Source: Bacteroidales bacterium KHT7 | GTDB lineage: Bacteria; Bacteroidota; Bacteroidia; Bacteroidales; Bacteroidaceae | Direction of reading: 5' to 3' | DNA: 64,000 nucleotides | NCBI GenBank assembly: GCA_900102385.1 | Contig: FNBQ01000001.1 | Location: forward strand, 124,001 to 188,000 | Part shown: positions 18,403 through 57,658 of the stretch, piece after piece | How positions within the stretch are numbered: position 1 is the first letter of the stretch | Layout of the letters: every line of letters starts with the position of its first letter | Program-made: the position numbers and the translations under genes | Notes under the pieces: generated by a model | Told to the model about the DNA's origin: nothing | Seen by the model: only the letters and a program-made list of their open reading frames with translations | The model's database searches: none

Positions 18403-18800
18403 GGGGTTGACCGGTTTTGACAGCGGGTTGAGGTGGTATGTAAGCATGCAGTGCTCCGCTGGTCGGCACTTTAATCTCGGCTTTCAAACTTTTATCTGGC
18501 GAGAATAACTACGCTCTTGCTGCTTAAACCGAAGCACAGTAGGTTAGCTTAATCTCGGCACAAGGTGCTGAGACAAGACATCACTCAGAAGCTCTTGCTC
18601 CGAAACATTCTGGTTAAGTGGTGCAGTCAAGTCGGGGATAGTTGGGTGTGGCCTCGCGCATCCGATGAGATTTTAGAGGATAAGGCGCATGTTGGTGGTC
18701 TGGGTCTTGCATGCGCACGAAAACCGAAGGCCAGAATAAGCATGTAGAAAGCATATTAGTTCCCTGTTTGGACGAGGGTTCGAATCCCTCCAGCTCCACC
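18403..18800 (+). ncRNA. ssrA: tmRNA (transfer-messenger RNA)
   Basis: About 398 bases. The 5' end GGGGTTG pairs with CAGCTCC at 18791-18797 to make a tRNA-like acceptor stem (with two G-U pairs), followed by the GGTTCGAATCC T-arm. The mRNA-like part reads GGC-GAG-AAT-AAC-TAC-GCT-CTT-GCT-GCT-TAA at 18498-18527, giving the tag GENNYALAA, as in other Bacteroidetes. tmRNA rescues stalled ribosomes and tags the unfinished protein for proteolysis. Own promoter and terminator flank it. CCA is not plainly encoded (bases after the discriminator are CCC). Confidence 0.97.
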
Positions 18801-18812
18801 CCACTAAGGAAC

Positions 18813-24333: not shown

Positions 24334-24616
24334 TTTATTTGTTTTTTATTTCTGGCTGCAAAGATTACAAAAACAGAACACCTATTTTATAAAACATTCC
24401 GAAAAAGTAAAAACAATCTTACATTATAACAAAAGCAAAATCGGCAAACCACATTAAAACGGCATTTAAACGAGAGAAAAATCGGCAAAAAACGGCGTTT
24501 TTTGAAAAAATTGGTTAATTTTGTGGTTCACAAAAAAATGATTTTTAACGAAACAGACATAAAAATTTAGATAACATACAGAAATATTTAATCATAGCGT
24601 TTGCTATTTAATCTGA
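24334..24616. other. Noncoding AT-rich spacer upstream of the structured RNA
   Basis: No gene seen. A plus-strand TAATTTTG at 24516-24523 fits TAnnTTTG and could start the transcript that carries the structured element, though no TTTG is found at the usual -33 distance. Confidence 0.4.
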
Positions 24617-24766
24617 AACGTTCGGAAACCTGGCAGTAGAAGAACTAATACAAGACTAAATAAGCAAATGCCTGCGCGTATGGCGTGGGCATTTCTTATC
24701 TTGTATTAGTGGGTCATGCCAGGTACCTCGAACGTTGGATAAGGAATTGTCCCACGTTCTTTTTTT
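24617..24766 (+). ncRNA. Structured RNA candidate with intrinsic terminator, upstream of hsdM
   Basis: Nested complementary arms form a long hairpin: AACGTTCG 24617-24624 with 24729-24736; ACCTGGCA 24628-24635 with 24717-24724; ACTAATACAAGA 24644-24655 with 24699-24710; TAAG 24661-24664 with 24695-24698; AAATGCC 24666-24672 with 24688-24694. That is about 39 pairs. Immediately after comes a terminator stem, GAACGTTGG 24730-24738 with CCCACGTTC 24751-24759 (one mismatch), and a T7 run. The 3' arm of the outer helix overlaps the 5' arm of the terminator, so the two cannot form together. Options: independent small RNA such as a 6S-like RNA, or a leader/attenuator of hsdM. Direction is plus if the terminator is real. 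Confidence 0.6.
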
Positions 24767-24810
24767 GTATATAGAGGTATCTGCATGGCTTTCGTTTTTT
24801 AGACCCTGAA

Positions 24811-24865
24811 TAGCATTCGTATTTAGACATAACTTATTGTGAAATACGAATCTACATTCAATGCT
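24811..24865. repeat. Inverted repeat enclosing the hsdM start codon
   Basis: ATTCGTATTT (24815-24824) and AAATACGAAT (24842-24851) are exact reverse complements; TAGCATT (24811-24817) and AATGCTA (24859-24865) form an outer, partly overlapping pair. The GTG start at 24839 lies in the 17-base loop. Confidence 0.55.
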
Positions 24866-26284
24866 ATCGATGCCATCCTGCGCAATGAGGCGGGATGCAG
24901 CAACGAACTGGACTACATAGAGCAAACATCGTGGCTCTTGTTCCTGAAATATCTCGACGACCTCGAAACGGAGCGCGAAGACGAAGCCGCCCTCGACGGC
25001 AAGGAATACCGCCGCATTATCACCGGCTTCAACCGTTGGAACGCTTGGGCTGCCCCAAAAACCGCAAAGGGCGAACTCGACGTTATCAACGCAATGACCG
25101 GCGACGACCTTGTGGAGTTTGTTAACCAAAAACTCTTCCCTTCGCTCAAACATTTCAAAGATACCGCCGTGTCGCCCGATACGCTTGAATACAAGATTGG
25201 CGAGATTTTCGACGAACTGCGCAACAAGATAAACAGCGGCTACAACATGCGCGAGATTATCAACAAGATAGACTCGCTTCACTTTCAGAGTGCCGACGAC
25301 AAGCACGAGATGACCGTGCTCTACGAGGATAAGATTCGCCGCATGGGCAACGCCGGTCGCAACGGTGGCGAGTACTACACTCCGCGTCCGCTCATTCGCA
25401 CCATCGTTAAGGTGGTGAATCCGCGCATTGGCGAAACCGTTTACGACCCTGCGTGCGGCTCGGCTGGCTTCCTCTGCGAGGCGTTCAACTATATGCAGGA
25501 ACAGATAAAGTCGGTGGCAGATAGCGACATGCTGCAAAAGTCGACCTTCTATGGCAAGGAGAAGAAGGGTTTGCCGTACATCATAGCCACCATGAACATG
25601 ATATTCCACGGTGTGGCTGCGCCCAACATCGTGCGTGGCAATACGCTCACCGAGAACCTTGCCGCCATTCAACAGCGCGACCGCAAAGACGTTATCCTTG
25701 CCAATCCGCCATTTGGAGGCAGCGAGCGCGCCGAGGTGCTGCAAAACTTCGATATACGCACCGGCGAGACGGCTTACATGTTTATGCAGCATTTTATAAA
25801 GATGCTGAAGGTGAACGGTCGCGCCGGCATAGTTATAAAAAACACCTTCCTGAGCAATGGCGATGCCGCAGCCGTGCGCCGCAAACTGCTCGAAGAGTGC
25901 AACCTACACATCATTCTCGACCTTCCGCAGGGCGTGTTCACCGGTGCAGGCGTAAAGACCGTGGTGCTCTTCTTCACCAAGGGCGAGCCAACGCGCAAAA
26001 TTTGGTATTACCAGCTGAACCTCAGCCGCACGCTTGGCAAGACTAACCCGTTGAACGAAGCCGACCTTGCCGACTTTGTGGCGTTGCAGCAGACCAAAGC
26101 CGAAAGCGAAAACTCTTGGACGCTCGATGCATCTGTACTTGGCAACGACTACGACCTTTCGGTAAAGAACCCAAACAAGCCTGAGATTGTAGATAACCGA
26201 ACCACCGAGGAGATTCTCAGCACCATAGCCGACCTCAACAGCGATTCCGCAAGATTGATTAACGAAATAAAGGAGATGCTATGA
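24839..26284 (+). CDS. hsdM: Type I restriction-modification N6-adenine methyltransferase subunit
   Basis: 481 residues. The N-terminal helical domain (1-150) is the HsdM_N type (DAILRNEAG, WLLFLKYLDDLE). The catalytic domain follows with GEYYTPRPL (177-185), the SAM motif I DPACGSAGF (203-211) and catalytic motif IV NPPF (289-292), as in gamma-class N6-adenine methyltransferases. Forms the M2S methylase that protects the host target and, with HsdR, the restriction complex. Starts at GTG; the only other in-frame option before an upstream stop is ATT. First gene of the hsdM-hsdS-rhuM-hsdR group; overlaps hsdS by ATGA. Rich in G/C at codon third positions compared with the polysaccharide genes. 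Confidence 0.96.
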   Translation: MKYESTFNAIDAILRNEAGCSNELDYIEQTSWLLFLKYLDDLETEREDEAALDGKEYRRIITGFNRWNAWAAPKTAKGELDVINAMTGDDLVEFVNQKLFPSLKHFKDTAVSPDTLEYKIGEIFDELRNKINSGYNMREIINKIDSLHFQSADDKHEMTVLYEDKIRRMGNAGRNGGEYYTPRPLIRTIVKVVNPRIGETVYDPACGSAGFLCEAFNYMQEQIKSVADSDMLQKSTFYGKEKKGLPYIIATMNMIFHGVAAPNIVRGNTLTENLAAIQQRDRKDVILANPPFGGSERAEVLQNFDIRTGETAYMFMQHFIKMLKVNGRAGIVIKNTFLSNGDAAAVRRKLLEECNLHIILDLPQGVFTGAGVKTVVLFFTKGEPTRKIWYYQLNLSRTLGKTNPLNEADLADFVALQQTKAESENSWTLDASVLGNDYDLSVKNPNKPEIVDNRTTEEILSTIADLNSDSARLINEIKEML

Positions 26285-27480
26285 AAGAAGGATGGAAATA
26301 TATGAAGTTGGGAGAAATAAGTGAATCTATAAAAGATGGTGATTGGATTGAAAAAAAAGATCAATCATTATCCGGTTTTAGATTAATACAAACGGGCAAT
26401 ATCGGTGTGGGTTTATTTAAAAATAAAGCAGAATCAGCACGTTATATAAGTGAAGAAACATTTTCACGTCTACATTGTGAAGAAGTTTTTGAAGGCGACA
26501 TTTTGATTTCTCGTTTGCCAGACCCTGTTGGACGTGCGTGTATTGTGCCGTATTTGGATACGCGCAACATTACAGCGGTAGATTGTTCAATCGTAAAATT
26601 AAACAGCAAAATAATCAATAGCGATTATTTTCTCCTGTATACTCAATCAAATAAATATTTCAACCAAATATCTTCGTTGTGTACAGGTTCGACAAGACAA
26701 CGTATTACAAGGAAAAAACTTACAGAACTTCAAATTCCCGTTCCCCCGCTCCCCGACCAGCAGCGCATTGTTTCCTATCTTGATGCCGAGTTTGTGAAGA
26801 TAGAAGCCCTTAAAGCCAATGCCGAAAAGCAACTTCAAGCCGCCAAAGATTTGTTTCAAGCCGCTCTAAAAGAGATGTTGACACCGAAAGAAGGATGGGT
26901 GGAGAAGAAGTTAAAGGAGGTAGGTAAAACACAAACTGGTTCAACACCTTCAAAAAGCAATGCCAATTATTATGGCAACTACATACCTTTCATAAGACCT
27001 GCTGAATTAAATTTCAACAATAACGGTGAAATAAAATATGATAGTGAAGTAAAACTGAGCGAGTCTGGTGCTAATTGTAGCAGAGTAATAGATGAAAACT
27101 CTGTATTAATGTGTTGTATTGGCAGCATTGGCAAAATAGGCTTTACAACACTAAAAGTAACTTGCAATCAGCAAATTAACACAATAACACCTTGTAGTGA
27201 TTATAATGCTCGTTTTATTTATTATGCATTATTATCACCTGATTTTCAAGAAGAAGCCATAAAAATAGCTAATAGTGCTCGAGCTACGTTAGCTATTATA
27301 AGTAAAGGAAAATGGGAAAACATTTTTATACCTATACCGCCACGTAAGGAGCAGCAACGTATCGCCGACCGCCTCGACGCACTCTCTGCCAATGTGAAAG
27401 CATTGCAAACGAACTACGCCGAAACCATAACGCTCTGCAACGACTTGAAACAGGCGTTGTTGAAAAAGGTGTTTGGATAG
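26281..27480 (+). CDS. hsdS: Type I restriction-modification specificity subunit
   Basis: 399 residues with the bipartite HsdS plan: target-recognition domain 1 (about 1-155), conserved helix (about 158-205, QQRIVSYLDAEFVKIEALKA), target-recognition domain 2 (about 210-355), and a second conserved helix at the C-terminus (about 357-397, QQRIADRLDALSANVKAL). Each recognition domain reads one half of a split DNA target. The recognition-domain DNA is more AT-rich than the helix regions and the neighbouring hsdM and hsdR, which fits exchange of these segments between systems. Overlaps hsdM by 4 bases; 95 bases precede the next gene, so a second promoter is used there. Target sequence cannot be deduced. 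Confidence 0.95.
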   Translation: MKEGWKYMKLGEISESIKDGDWIEKKDQSLSGFRLIQTGNIGVGLFKNKAESARYISEETFSRLHCEEVFEGDILISRLPDPVGRACIVPYLDTRNITAVDCSIVKLNSKIINSDYFLLYTQSNKYFNQISSLCTGSTRQRITRKKLTELQIPVPPLPDQQRIVSYLDAEFVKIEALKANAEKQLQAAKDLFQAALKEMLTPKEGWVEKKLKEVGKTQTGSTPSKSNANYYGNYIPFIRPAELNFNNNGEIKYDSEVKLSESGANCSRVIDENSVLMCCIGSIGKIGFTTLKVTCNQQINTITPCSDYNARFIYYALLSPDFQEEAIKIANSARATLAIISKGKWENIFIPIPPRKEQQRIADRLDALSANVKALQTNYAETITLCNDLKQALLKKVFG

Positions 27481-27542
27481 ATTTGTGCCAAATCAGCAAA
27501 ATTAGCATACTGAAATCTGCATAATTCGCTAATTATTTTTAG

Positions 27543-27550
27543 TATATTTG
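27543..27550 (+). promoter_or_regulatory. -7 promoter element for rhuM-hsdR
   Basis: TATATTTG fits TAnnTTTG and lies 25 bases before the ATG at 27576. It suggests that rhuM and hsdR can be transcribed separately from hsdMS. No -33 TTTG found. Confidence 0.5.
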
Positions 27551-27575
27551 TACGGATTATAAAAAAAACATAATT

Positions 27576-28592
27576 ATGGACGAACAGCAGAATATAATCA
27601 TATATCGTACAGCAGACGGACGAGCTTCGGTTGTACTCTTTGCTAAAGATGGAAATATATGGCTTAACCAACAACAGATGGCAGAACTTTTTGCCACCTC
27701 GAAGCAATTGATTAGTCACCACATAGCTAACATACTAAAAGAGAATGAATTGAATGAAGATTCAGTTGTAAAACAATATTTGACAACTGCCGCAGATGGC
27801 AAAAATTACAACGTGGTATTCTACTCTCTCGAAATGATTATAGCTGTAGGTTATAGGGTACGAGGCATTCGTGGCACGCAGTTCAGACAATGGGCAACAG
27901 AGCATCTGACGGAATATCTTGTAAAAGGTTTTACGATGGATGACGAGCGCCTGAAGAATCCAGACGGCAGACCCGACTACTTCGATGAATTGCTGCTGCG
28001 CATCCGCGACATTAGAGCATCGGAAAAACGTTTCTATCAGAAGATAAGAGACCTCTTTGCACTAAGCAGCGACTACGACAAGAGCGACAAGGCAACACAG
28101 ATGTTCTTTGCCGAAACGCAGAACAAACTGCTCTATGCCGTAGCCCACAAGACGGCTGCCGAACTTATTGTCAGTAGGGCCGACGCAAACCAACCTAATA
28201 TGGGACTCACCACATGGAAAGGCAGCATCGTGCGCAAAGGCGACGTTATCATTGCAAAGAACTATCTGCACGATGATGAAATAGAGTCATTGAATCGTCT
28301 GGTAGACATCTTCCTGACAAGTGCCGAAGAACGAGTAAAGAATCGCCGGGATCTTACACTTGACTATTGGCGCAAGAATGTGGACAACCTGTTGACATTC
28401 CAAGATAAAGACATACTGCAAGATACCGGTAGCATTACAAACTATGAAGCAGAGAAAACGGTGAAACAAATATATGATGTTTTCAACAACAAGCGTAAAC
28501 AATTGGAGGCGCAAACAGCCGATGCCGAAGATATGAAAATGCTGGAAGATTTAGAAAAAAAAATTGTAGCAGAAAATAAAAAAGGGAAATAG
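27576..28592 (+). CDS. RhuM-family protein (virulence RhuM), inserted in RM operon
   Basis: 338 residues. The N-terminal part has a KilA/antirepressor-like layout (IWLNQQQMAELFATSKQLISHHIANIL, then YNVVFYSLEMIIAVGYRVRGIRGTQFRQWATEHLTEYLVKGFTMDDERLKNP), which is the diagnostic RhuM block; the C-terminal half is charged and helical. RhuM proteins are frequent companions of type I restriction genes in gut Bacteroidales; their role is unproven. The gene lies between hsdS and hsdR, 9 bases before hsdR, so it is probably co-translated with it. The name comes from a Salmonella pathogenicity-island gene, so it does not by itself imply virulence. Confidence 0.9.
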   Translation: MDEQQNIIIYRTADGRASVVLFAKDGNIWLNQQQMAELFATSKQLISHHIANILKENELNEDSVVKQYLTTAADGKNYNVVFYSLEMIIAVGYRVRGIRGTQFRQWATEHLTEYLVKGFTMDDERLKNPDGRPDYFDELLLRIRDIRASEKRFYQKIRDLFALSSDYDKSDKATQMFFAETQNKLLYAVAHKTAAELIVSRADANQPNMGLTTWKGSIVRKGDVIIAKNYLHDDEIESLNRLVDIFLTSAEERVKNRRDLTLDYWRKNVDNLLTFQDKDILQDTGSITNYEAEKTVKQIYDVFNNKRKQLEAQTADAEDMKMLEDLEKKIVAENKKGK

Positions 28593-28601
28593 CCAATAAC
28601 T

Positions 28602-31010
28602 ATGGACGAATCAACAACACGCCGAAAGAAGATAGACCCTGCGCTCTATGCCGTGGGTTGGGAGCAAGTGCCCGAAAGTCAGATACTCAACGAGCAACGC
28701 GCGTACCTCATTGCGCCCGGTCGTGTGGAAAAACTGAAGGCACGTCACCCCAAGAAGGTGGACTACATTCTGGAATACAAGGGCATAAAACTCGCTGTCG
28801 TGGAAGCCAAATCCGACGAAACAGATGTTTCGGTGGGCGTGCCGCAAGCCAAGCAGTACGCCGAAATGTTGCAGATTCGCTATACATACGCTACCAACGG
28901 CGACAAAATCTACTTCATAGATATGGGCGTTAAGGATGCGCACGGCAATTACTCCGTGCCATCTACCGAGAAGTTCATAGACAAATTCCCATCGCCGCAA
29001 GAGTTGTGGCAGATGACATTCCCCGAGGATAACGAGTGGCGCGACCGCTTCAACCTCGAACCACTGAACCGTGGCGGCAGCCGCGAGCCGCGTTATTACC
29101 AAGTAAACGCCATCAACAACGTGCTCAACGCAGTGGCAAACGGACAAAACCGCATTTTGCTAACTATGGCAACCGGCACGGGCAAAACATACACCGCTTT
29201 TCAGATTTGTTGGAAACTATTTCAGACCAAATGGAATCTCCACGGAGCCGACCAACGTCCGCGCATACTTTTCATCGCCGACCGCAATATACTTGCCAAC
29301 CAAGCCGTCAACGATTTTGAACAGTTTCCCGACGATGCCATGGTGCGCATCACGCCCGACGAGTTGCGCAAGAACCATGGCAAAGTACCAACGGCGCGGC
29401 ATCTCTATTTCACCATCTTCCAAACCTTCATGTGTGCCGACGAGAGTGGCGAGCCTTACTATAAACAATATCCAGCGGATTTCTTCGATTTCATCATAAT
29501 AGACGAGTGCCACCGTGGAGGTGCAAATGACGAAAGCCAATGGCGCGAACTTATGGATTATTTTTCGCCCGCCTATCAACTCGGAATGACCGCCACGCCG
29601 CGCCGTCAGGACAACGCCAACACATACCGCTATTTTGGCGAGCCGGTGTATTCCTATTCGCTCAAACAAGGCATCGCCGACGGCTATCTCACGCCATTCC
29701 GCGTGCGCATTTCTGAAAGCAACATCGACGAGTACACTTACAACCCCGACGACGAGGTTGAAGGCGAAATAGATATCGAAAAGACCTATACCGAAAGCGA
29801 TTTCTATAATGGCAAAATAGAGATTCGCCAGCGCGACGAATACCGAGTAAAGGAACTCCTTGCGCAGATAAATCCAGACGAAAAGACGATTGTGTTCTGT
29901 GCCACACAGCTTCATGCGCACATCATTCGCGACATGATAAACCAGCACAAAAAGAACCCTGCGCCGAACTACTGTGAGCGCGTGACTGCCGACGATGGCG
30001 CGGATGGCGAAGAGGCTCTGAGACTCTTTCAAGACAACGAGCACAAGTTGCCGACCATTCTAACCACATCGCAGAAACTATCTACTGGCGTGGATGCTCG
30101 CAACGTGCGCAACATTGCGCTGATGCGTCCTGTAAACAACATGGTGGAGTTCAAGCAGATTATCGGTCGCGGCACACGCCTTTTCGACGATAAATACTAC
30201 TTCACTATTTACGACTTTGTGGGCGCAAGTCGCAATTTTCAAGATGCCGAGTGGGACGGCGACCCATTCTGTCCTGTCTGTGGCAATTATCCCTGCACCT
30301 GCAACAAAAAACCGAAGCCATATCCCAAGGATGAGCCAGAAGGACTACCAGAAGCAAGCGACACCCATAAGCCATGCCCTGTGTGCGGTCATCTGCCTTG
30401 CACCTGCGACGGCGGCAGCAAGCCCCAAAAGAAAATCATCGTCCGCCTGTCGGCACAGCGCACATTCGGACTAAAAACAAAATGGACGGAGAAATTCCAG
30501 TATGGCGACGAACTTATTTCGATAGAAGAATTTATACAGAAACTTTTCGGCAAATTGCCGTCGTTCTTCAACGGACCGGAGGATTTGCGAAAACAATGGG
30601 AGCATCCCGACACACGTCGCGCCCTGCTCAACCAACTGGAACAAGAAGGCTTTCACGAAGAGAAACTTCAGAAGATGCAGTTTGTGATGGGACGCGAGGA
30701 TTGCGACCTGCTCGATGTGCTCGAATATCTTGCCTACGAAACCACGCCTATAGAACGCGAAAAACGCGTTGAACTCGTGCGACAAGACTATTACAAGCAG
30801 CAGACTAAAGCTCAAAAAGAATTCATCGACTTCCTTATCGCCCAGTATCTGCGCAACAGTTACCACGAATTCACGTCCGACAATCTTGGCAAGTTCATCA
30901 ATATGAAATACGGCTCAATTGCCGACGCCAAAGCCAACCTCGATATGGACGTATCGCAGATACGCAACCAGTACATCGAGTTTCAACGACAACTATACAG
31001 CAGAGCATAA
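28602..31010 (+). CDS. hsdR: Type I restriction endonuclease, HsdR subunit
   Basis: 802 residues. Nuclease core: D54, then E68-A-K70 (VEAK), the PD-(D/E)xK arrangement that cuts DNA. Helicase motor: Walker A ATGTGKT (190-196), DECH box (301-304), TATPRR (330-335) and motif VI QIIGRGTR (519-526). A stretch with two near-identical cysteine knuckles follows, CPVCGNYPCTC (557-567) and CPVCGHLPCTC (592-602), then the C-terminal domain that binds the methylase. It translocates and cleaves unmodified DNA together with HsdM and HsdS. Length and motifs fit EcoEI/EcoKI-like HsdR. Ends 4 bases before a strong bidirectional terminator. Confidence 0.95.
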   Translation: MDESTTRRKKIDPALYAVGWEQVPESQILNEQRAYLIAPGRVEKLKARHPKKVDYILEYKGIKLAVVEAKSDETDVSVGVPQAKQYAEMLQIRYTYATNGDKIYFIDMGVKDAHGNYSVPSTEKFIDKFPSPQELWQMTFPEDNEWRDRFNLEPLNRGGSREPRYYQVNAINNVLNAVANGQNRILLTMATGTGKTYTAFQICWKLFQTKWNLHGADQRPRILFIADRNILANQAVNDFEQFPDDAMVRITPDELRKNHGKVPTARHLYFTIFQTFMCADESGEPYYKQYPADFFDFIIIDECHRGGANDESQWRELMDYFSPAYQLGMTATPRRQDNANTYRYFGEPVYSYSLKQGIADGYLTPFRVRISESNIDEYTYNPDDEVEGEIDIEKTYTESDFYNGKIEIRQRDEYRVKELLAQINPDEKTIVFCATQLHAHIIRDMINQHKKNPAPNYCERVTADDGADGEEALRLFQDNEHKLPTILTTSQKLSTGVDARNVRNIALMRPVNNMVEFKQIIGRGTRLFDDKYYFTIYDFVGASRNFQDAEWDGDPFCPVCGNYPCTCNKKPKPYPKDEPEGLPEASDTHKPCPVCGHLPCTCDGGSKPQKKIIVRLSAQRTFGLKTKWTEKFQYGDELISIEEFIQKLFGKLPSFFNGPEDLRKQWEHPDTRRALLNQLEQEGFHEEKLQKMQFVMGREDCDLLDVLEYLAYETTPIEREKRVELVRQDYYKQQTKAQKEFIDFLIAQYLRNSYHEFTSDNLGKFINMKYGSIADAKANLDMDVSQIRNQYIEFQRQLYSRA

Positions 31011-35804: not shown

Positions 35805-35878
35805 GGTGCGTTAGTTCAGCTGGTTAGAATACATGCCTGTCACGCATGGGGTCACGGGTTCGAGTCCCGTACGCACCG
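35805..35878 (+). tRNA. tRNA-Asp (anticodon GTC)
   Basis: 74 bases. Acceptor arms GGTGCGT and ACGCACC pair; anticodon stem CATGC/GCATG with loop CTGTCAC gives anticodon GTC; T-loop GTTCGAGTC is canonical. Discriminator G; CCA not encoded. Confidence 0.97.
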
Positions 35879-57585: not shown

Positions 57586-57658
57586 TGGTGCCACCAGGAA
57601 TCGAACCGGGGACACAAGGATTTTCAGTCCTTTGCTCTACCAACTGAGCTATGGCACC
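57586..57658 (-). tRNA. tRNA-Phe (anticodon GAA)
   Basis: 73 bases on the minus strand. Acceptor GGTGCCA/TGGCACC with discriminator A, anticodon stem AAGGA/TCCTT with loop CTGAAAA (anticodon GAA), T-loop GTTCGATTC. CCA not encoded. Confidence 0.97.

Follow-up and report, generated by a model that had tools for sequence, protein, structure and literature searches.

A candidate class of conditional leader RNAs ahead of restriction-modification genes in Bacteroidales

The locus and the fold of the window copy

The window, a stretch of 64,000 nucleotides from Bacteroidales bacterium KHT7, carries on its + strand a type I restriction-modification (R-M) operon, hsdM-hsdS-rhuM-hsdR. The methylase gene hsdM (24839-26284, +; PF02384, 1.7e-60, and PF12161) is followed by hsdS, a RhuM-family gene and hsdR (26281-31010, +; PF01420, PF13310 and PF04851/PF08463, respectively), the RhuM-family gene between hsdS and hsdR occupying 27576-28592 (+; PF13310, 1.3e-107). 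The window also holds a tmRNA gene (18403-18801, +; Rfam RF00023, 126.9 bits) and tRNAs at 35805-35878 and 57586-57658. Ahead of the operon lies an element of ~170 bases (24596-24766, +), which ends 73 bases before the GTG start codon of hsdM at 24839. An earlier note, made from the letters of the window, had placed a structured RNA about 70 bases ahead of a methylase gene, and this position is correct. The extent that it gave, 24617-24766, does contain the core fold, whereas the conserved element begins ~20 bases earlier, at 24596. Further upstream, the box TAATTTTG (24516-24523, +) is recognised by its sequence as TAnnTTTG, which we take to be the -7 type of Bacteroidota promoters.

From its 5’ end, the element starts with a near-invariant leader, L (24596-24613, +; AGCGTTTGCTATTTAATC in the window), which is able to pair with 24654-24672 and also to form a small hairpin of its own. 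Next comes a long rod on the + strand, composed of a closing helix P1 (24617-24624/24729-24736, 8 perfect pairs), P2 (24628-24635/24717-24724, 8 pairs), P3 (24644-24655/24699-24710, 12 pairs, its sequence free and its pairing kept), P4 (24661-24664/24695-24698, 4 pairs), and an apical hairpin P5 with conserved G-U pairs (24666-24677/24683-24694). All five helices of the nested hairpin described earlier (8, 8, 12, 4 and 7 pairs) are found in their places; the last one, P5, counts 12 pairs with G-U instead of 7. The 5’ strand of the rod is designated A, and its top, GACTAAATAAGCAAATGCC (24654-24672, +), which is the partner of L, overlaps P4 and the base of P5. The 3’ strand, A’ (P4’, P3’ and P2’; 24695-24724, +), is common to both rival folds described below. 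The intrinsic terminator announced after the rod is present: folding predicts a terminator-type hairpin, PT (24730-24759, +; outer arm 24730-24735, then 24737-24742), which leads into a U-run of seven T (24760-24766, +). Its 5’ arm, 24730-24742, is overlapped by the 3’ arm of the closing helix, P1’ (24729-24736, +), and the two structures exclude each other, as had been proposed. The earlier observation of the helix, the terminator and their overlap is confirmed, and the structure is larger than first noted: in the main form of the element, pairing partners run beyond the U-run, nearly to the start codon. In the window this downstream segment, A2 (24774-24812, +; pairing 24774-24789 and 24802-24812), is partially complementary to A’, matching P2’ and the GGGTC of A’.

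The minimum free energy of 24600-24780 is -73.9 kcal/mol, compared with -41.2 +/- 4.2 for 200 shuffles (z -7.8), none of which folds as well. The reverse strand, at -58.7, is also well outside its own shuffles (z -7.95). Since both strands beat their shuffles, the z-score alone cannot say which of them folds; the asymmetry between G-U and A-C can.

Occurrence of the element

In a search at the DNA level, 32 of 399 genomes of the window’s family had a match. Together with further DNA searches, this one provided a first alignment of 23 sequences, which seeded a covariance model. At E <=0.01 the model detects the element in 262 of the 399 genomes of the family (about two thirds) and in 136 of 393 genomes of the order; at E <=1e-4, it does so in 24 of 296 genomes of the phylum, the window’s own genome and one relative included. 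As few candidates were scored per genome (6, 7 and 9 in the family, order and phylum searches), copy numbers are lower bounds. The window’s own genome has at least five copies at E <=0.01 and a sixth at E 0.03. These copies are dissimilar, and four of them precede different R-M genes: the window copy and C23 (hsdM type), C44 (methylase) and C53 (type III mod type).

Two sets of elements were assembled. Set 1 comprises 144 elements (141 distinct sequences) retained from 155 model matches after removal of six duplicate loci, four partial or weak matches and one on the reverse strand; being drawn from the top of ranked lists, it is biased toward the form found in the window. Within it, a main form (>=100 bits; 107 elements with a downstream ORF plus one without downstream sequence) is separated from a diverged form (<=95.4 bits, n=36). 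Set 2 was gathered from named GTDB genomes, blind to the downstream gene, by exact matches to an 18-base motif that lies at the element’s 5’ end. At least 119 stretches carry this motif, and 108 of the 119 listed, those matching the whole model, were used. The 11 others were cut by a contig end or gave a weak or no match, two of them being full-length with a long insertion (75-78 bits). Pooled tests bear on 227 distinct elements, with all of set 2 taken as main form except L300; the two sets share some contigs.

The diverged form (the 36 loci of set 1 with low scores, L330-L335 and L337) also occurs outside Bacteroidales, and several of its copies precede secreted-looking proteins. To note, elements in several genomes (G476, G414, G544, G467) are 170-400 bases away from the end of a contig, as though adjoining repeated sequence. 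A phage origin was considered and rejected: no match to the window element was found in 50,697 phage records, and two IMG/VR contigs that carry the 18-mer score only 22-25 bits with the model. One Prevotella plasmid matches half the query; its adjacent gene is on the other strand, and it has no same-strand neighbour gene.

Covariation of the rod and strand of folding

The earlier note held that its reading should fall without covarying pairs. In the 23-sequence alignment, two-sided variation affects 30 of the 46 pairs, two-sided cells number 159 as compared to 54.8 after shuffling, and 87% of cells are paired versus 37-44% when the partners are slid. Of 500 shuffles, none reaches the alignment in paired cells, two-sided pairs or cells, or covariation score, while 5 do so in further pair types. 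When 80 distinct rows are fitted to the model, one weak reverse-strand row among them, 44 of 47 pairs have changed on both sides and two-sided cells amount to 935 versus 294. In this larger alignment, such changes affect all six modelled pairs of P1, all eight of P2 (97.8% of cells paired), eight of nine in P5, and all five of PT (79.2% of cells paired).

The strand is indicated by the mismatches tolerated. Among the matches listed, the 190 pooled main-form elements exhibit 377 G-U versus 80 A-C in A:A’, and 113 versus 11 in P5. Since G-U on one strand is A-C on the other, this asymmetry indicates that the + strand is selected to fold, as RNA, in both A:A’ and P5. At the place of the U-run, at least six T in eight bases are found in 168 of these 190 listed main-form elements. 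P1’ and the modelled core of the terminator occupy separate columns of the consensus alignment; their overlap arises from their extensions and is observed, by a permissive folding test, in 160 of the 190 main-form elements among the matches listed. The terminator hairpin of the diverged form is weaker.

A helix P0, joining a 5’ AGCGU to a 3’ ACGCU near the U-run, is not established: its cells are paired at 71% in 51 main-form rows and at 82% in 29 diverged rows, with 3 and 0 two-sided cells, respectively. The apical GCGTGG is complementary to a CCACGC preceding the U-run, yet is nearly invariant. In the diverged form, an AGTYCC before the U-run pairs with a GGRACT after it, with at least six pairs in 26 of 33 loci as compared to 56% when loci are mismatched (nine of 42 loci were dropped because their U-run pattern was unmatched); from these sequence counts, this pairing is suggestive only. 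A small hairpin after the U-run is common in the same form, with a GGGACT-like loop matching the AGTYCC before the U-run.

A second, competing fold

Two further complementarities would compete with the rod. The first involves L, near-invariant across the class (AGCGTTTGCTATTTATTC), whose complement is the top of the rod 5’ strand, spanning P4 and the P5 foot. The model did not include this L:A pairing, in which 92.4% of cells are paired versus 38-51% with partners slid. Its two-sided cells number 45 against 12.7 after shuffling (0 of 500 shuffles), but its eight two-sided pairs are reached by 24 of 500 shuffles. In its upper part, 384 of 393 cells pair in the 51 main-form rows and 190 of 205 in the 29 diverged rows. 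Where one position of L has A in place of G, all 10 partner bases are U (Fisher 3e-6). The L:A duplex of the window is worth -14.7 kcal/mol.

The second complementarity is a feature of the main form. There, the stretch from the U-run to the start codon, A2, is similar to A, and its complementarity extends over all of A’. Among the matches listed, the mean A’:A2 duplex energy over the 188 pooled main-form loci is -41.1 kcal/mol. Ranked against those of 30 other loci, the A2 of a locus itself falls in the best 5% for 95 of these 188 listed loci, while a control stretch located 90-160 bases downstream does so for 10 and the A strand for 142; conversely, in 21 of the 188 the locus’s own A2 pairs worse than half of those from other loci. 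In the diverged form, where A2 is mostly missing, the mean is -21.6 versus -20.9 for the control stretch, and the own A2 reaches the best 5% in 9 of 37 loci versus 0 of 37 for the control; from these ranks, there may be a trace of A2 in this form as well. Constrained folding of 127 main-form leaders among the matches listed favours the second rod by a mean of 4.2 kcal/mol with a spread of 10.3. The energies of the two rods often differ widely, coming within 6 kcal/mol of each other in only 49 of these leaders, and it is the first rod that is favoured in 39. For 20 diverged leaders, the mean advantage of the first rod is 10 kcal/mol. Between the two states, the start region differs little in its mean unpaired share (0.49 versus 0.42).

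In the window, A’ and A2 are partly complementary (-26.7 kcal/mol) and A2 ranks at 0.27 against other loci, and is thus not exceptional here. The energies of the window leader are -94.4 for the first rod, -75.7 for the second and -99.3 for the free fold, a hybrid that keeps P3-P5, yields P2 to an extended hairpin around the terminator and makes use of A2. Within the same genome, A2 ranks at 0.0 for C23, 0.0 for C44 and 0.2 for C53. The rival helices of the earlier note hold in the window, and the full four-segment arrangement is better seen in relatives, including C23 and C44. Mutually exclusive conserved structures are L:A against P4 and the foot of P5 and, in the main form, A:A’ against A’:A2, the arrangement being partial in the window. 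By comparison across loci, the + strand rod A:A’, the L:A complementarity, a terminator at or over the foot of the rod and the main-form complementarity of A2 to A’ are established as predicted pairings.

The A’:A2 pairing has a weaker strand asymmetry, with 502 G-U versus 258 A-C. As mismatched loci are also rich in G-U (373 versus 236), selection on A’:A2 as RNA is less certain. This weak asymmetry, the three mutually complementary strands and a cargo of the accessory-island type might be explained by a DNA element, in which A, A’ and A2 would be an invertible or recombining repeat, akin to an inverton or an integron attC site, that moves cassettes such as R-M genes. We consider this explanation highly improbable: the G-U preference points to + strand selection as RNA for A:A’ and P5, the repeats vary by locus so that no common recombinase site is seen, 108 of the 119 listed contigs carrying the 18-mer agree with the model over its full length, terminator end included, and in one arrangement, and no arrays occur in the window’s own genome.

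Position ahead of genes

The element is oriented with the gene that follows it. Among the pooled matches listed, the longest frame of the downstream kilobase is on the strand of the element in 213 of 217 cases, as compared to 80 of 139 for upstream stretches. A start codon is found 35-80 nt past the element in 154 of the 240 downstream genes among the matches listed, a count made by a mechanical ORF rule and with repeats included. A TAnnTTTG box lies within 120 bases upstream in 106 of the 144 elements of set 1, versus a mean of 9.5 for mononucleotide shuffles and 6 of 141 for a control stretch. The element thus occupies a 5’ UTR position, with a promoter upstream and a same-strand gene at a fixed spacing downstream, as judged by sequence only. 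Likewise, the conserved folds and their mutual exclusion emerge, as predictions, from the comparison of loci. These observations favour the attenuator- or riboswitch-like leader that the earlier note had put forward. In the window, the short ORF upstream of L, located between the promoter box and L (ten codons, MIFNETDIKI; 24538-24570, +), is shortened by one inserted T in a sister genome (L018); it is therefore probably not a leader peptide, and such a peptide is unlikely at this locus.

The main alternative of the earlier note was a standalone small RNA with a 6S-like rod shape. 6S RNA usually has one or two genes per genome and is not tied to R-M, whereas the present element is multi-copy. 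No Rfam 15 family matches it over the gathering score; below that score, matches are at chance level (best E 0.56), and no 6S family appears up to E 10. The resemblance to 6S RNA or 6S-Flavo, as to other Rfam families, is therefore rejected. A search of the window’s own genome with RF01685 (6S-Flavo) gave nothing anywhere, which makes it a weak control. More generally, a standalone RNA that has its own promoter and terminator, acts in trans and travels with neighbouring genes would account for the promoter box, the terminator-type 3’ end, the stable rod and the several copies in many genomes. It would leave aside the fixed spacing to the start codon, the co-direction with the downstream gene and the pairing beyond the U-run; moreover, P3 differs between copies, so that no common trans target is obvious. 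Such an RNA is an unlikely explanation. Co-direction, spacing, promoter box and the dissimilarity of the copies within the window’s genome favour, at the level of sequence comparison, a leader acting in cis.

Genes under the element

The 108 loci of set 2 provide 97 distinct downstream proteins, after removal of repeats and of loci with less than 500 bases downstream. Among these matches listed, 71 of the 97 are R-M proteins: 65 belong to three BLAST clusters, four are D12-class methylases, one is of IIG type and one is a type IV-like helicase. The clusters were checked by family models, with representatives of most sub-clusters examined singly and the others by family tallies; one R-M sub-cluster of 11 (10 in set 2) matches weakly, with a Pfam E of 4e-5, below the cut-off, and 3e-11 in PADLOC. 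With self-hits excluded, a tblastn search with these R-M proteins gives hits in 63 of 86 downstream stretches and in none of the 84 upstream ones among the matches listed. Of the listed loci having both flanks, 47 of 65 have R-M downstream and none upstream. In the main form of set 1, 71 of 107 downstream proteins are R-M or DISARM/PLD-nuclease-like. The R-M and defence types following the element include type I, II, IIG, III and DISARM-like systems.

The remaining cargo is diverse. Of the set 1 main-form proteins, 103 were passed through Pfam and include six acyltransferase-3, five PAP2 and three DUF6056 proteins. For the diverged form, R-M proteins of the same clusters make up 2 of the 36 downstream proteins, and the Pfam tally is scattered, with no family exceeding two of 36 and with LRR, VWA, BACON and other surface or secreted types; defence is therefore not the sole job of the class. 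In the window’s genome, the element accompanies 3 of 11 N6_Mtase loci and 1 of 4 N6_N4_Mtase loci (four of about 15). This share and the other cargo indicate that the element is neither needed for R-M nor limited to it. The PAP2 and acyltransferase-3 genes behind main-form elements (L074, L102, L124, L125, L148; L053, L054, L062) suggest that surface modification may share the switch with restriction. A WYL-domain regulator is found behind the element in at least two genomes (L064, L068, L239, L305, some of them apparently the same contigs); WYL-type proteins are placed beside CRISPR-Cas by PADLOC.

The length of some of these operons, such as the 6-kb hsdM-hsdR, together with the high degree of structure and the multiple copies, is reminiscent of processive antitermination RNAs of the put or EAR kind, which modify RNA polymerase for read-through of long operons. 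To our knowledge, such RNAs need neither a terminator of their own nor alternative pairings of this sort, and the element has both a terminator-type hairpin and the L:A and A’:A2 alternatives; this explanation is very unlikely.

A proposed four-segment switch

Taken together, these features are probably best read as those of a widespread class of conditional leader RNA acting in cis. Its four segments would act as a switch between A:A', on the one hand, and L:A together with A':A2 on the other. In the first state, A would pair with A’ and the closing helix P1 would capture the 5’ arm of the terminator. In the second one, L would hold A, the freed A’ would pair with A2, and the terminator hairpin would be displayed at the tip of a second rod, near the start codon. 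The choice of state, made co-transcriptionally, would set read-through or translation of the downstream operon, most often an R-M operon, in response to a trigger that may be a ligand, a protein, an RNA or the speed of transcription. As the conservation of L and P5 extends over loci whose genes are unrelated, the factor that governs this choice is expected to be one that these bacteria have in common instead of a product of each operon.

A strict ligand-binding riboswitch would be a special case of this cis-acting leader, in which L, the internal loops and P5 form the aptamer for one small molecule. The conservation of L and P5 across many genera, the terminator at or over the rod foot and the diversity of the genes under the element are in line with this idea, while the genes themselves (methylases, acyltransferases, PAP2 and secreted proteins) point to no ligand; we view it as possible but doubtful. 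Equally tentative is a broader proposal, in which many unrelated defence operons (type I, II, IIG and III R-M, DISARM-like) and some surface genes would be placed under one RNA switch with a single common trigger. Defence might then be raised or held back in concert while the transcript is being made, for instance when a phage infects or when a newly acquired operon enters the cell.

Relation to known systems

Several known systems share parts of this architecture. The trp and his leaders are attenuators of four segments that pair as 1:2 and 3:4 or as 2:3, with the terminator in one state. The element follows the same scheme, but nothing in the window points to a leader peptide, and its 3:4 helix encloses the terminator and U-run rather than forming the terminator. 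The hok mRNA, in which tac, ucb and dcb engage in alternative pairings and metastable folds, encodes a small toxin; it resembles the element in having several mutually complementary segments in one mRNA, whereas the genes downstream of the element are mostly methylases. R-M systems of the EcoRI type are controlled by their own antisense RNA. The likeness is that of an RNA bearing on R-M gene expression, predicted here from sequence, but in the EcoRI case a single system is served by its own RNA, whereas one leader class precedes type I, II, IIG, III and DISARM-like genes. The crcB and pfl riboswitch classes, as presented in PMC2864571, also combine a structured 5’ UTR domain overlapping a terminator with varied genes; the element differs from them by its lack of an Rfam match, its R-M-dominated main form and its partners beyond the U-run.

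The class was not found described in the literature searched, including by motif letters; most subscription journals, preprints and all supplements were beyond the reach of this search. Palindromic candidate RNAs have been reported in Bacteroidetes (PMC8040213), and motifs that never entered Rfam are listed elsewhere (PMC2864571). Some of these candidates may overlap with the present class. Attenuator-like leaders are a known kind of RNA; what appears to be new is the class itself, the strand shared across the U-run and the attachment to R-M.

Implications for defence control

Control of R-M genes is usually ascribed to C proteins, to the methylase of the system itself or to antisense RNA. Shared by several types of R-M and carried by about two thirds of the family genomes sampled, a common leader would be a new level at which defence is controlled in a major group of gut bacteria. 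Its architecture is unusual: the 5’ strand has a second copy past the terminator, and this copy competes for the 3’ strand. One RNA switch may thus be shared by a whole class of phage-defence genes, and learning what triggers it would show what is sensed by these bacteria as they adjust restriction.
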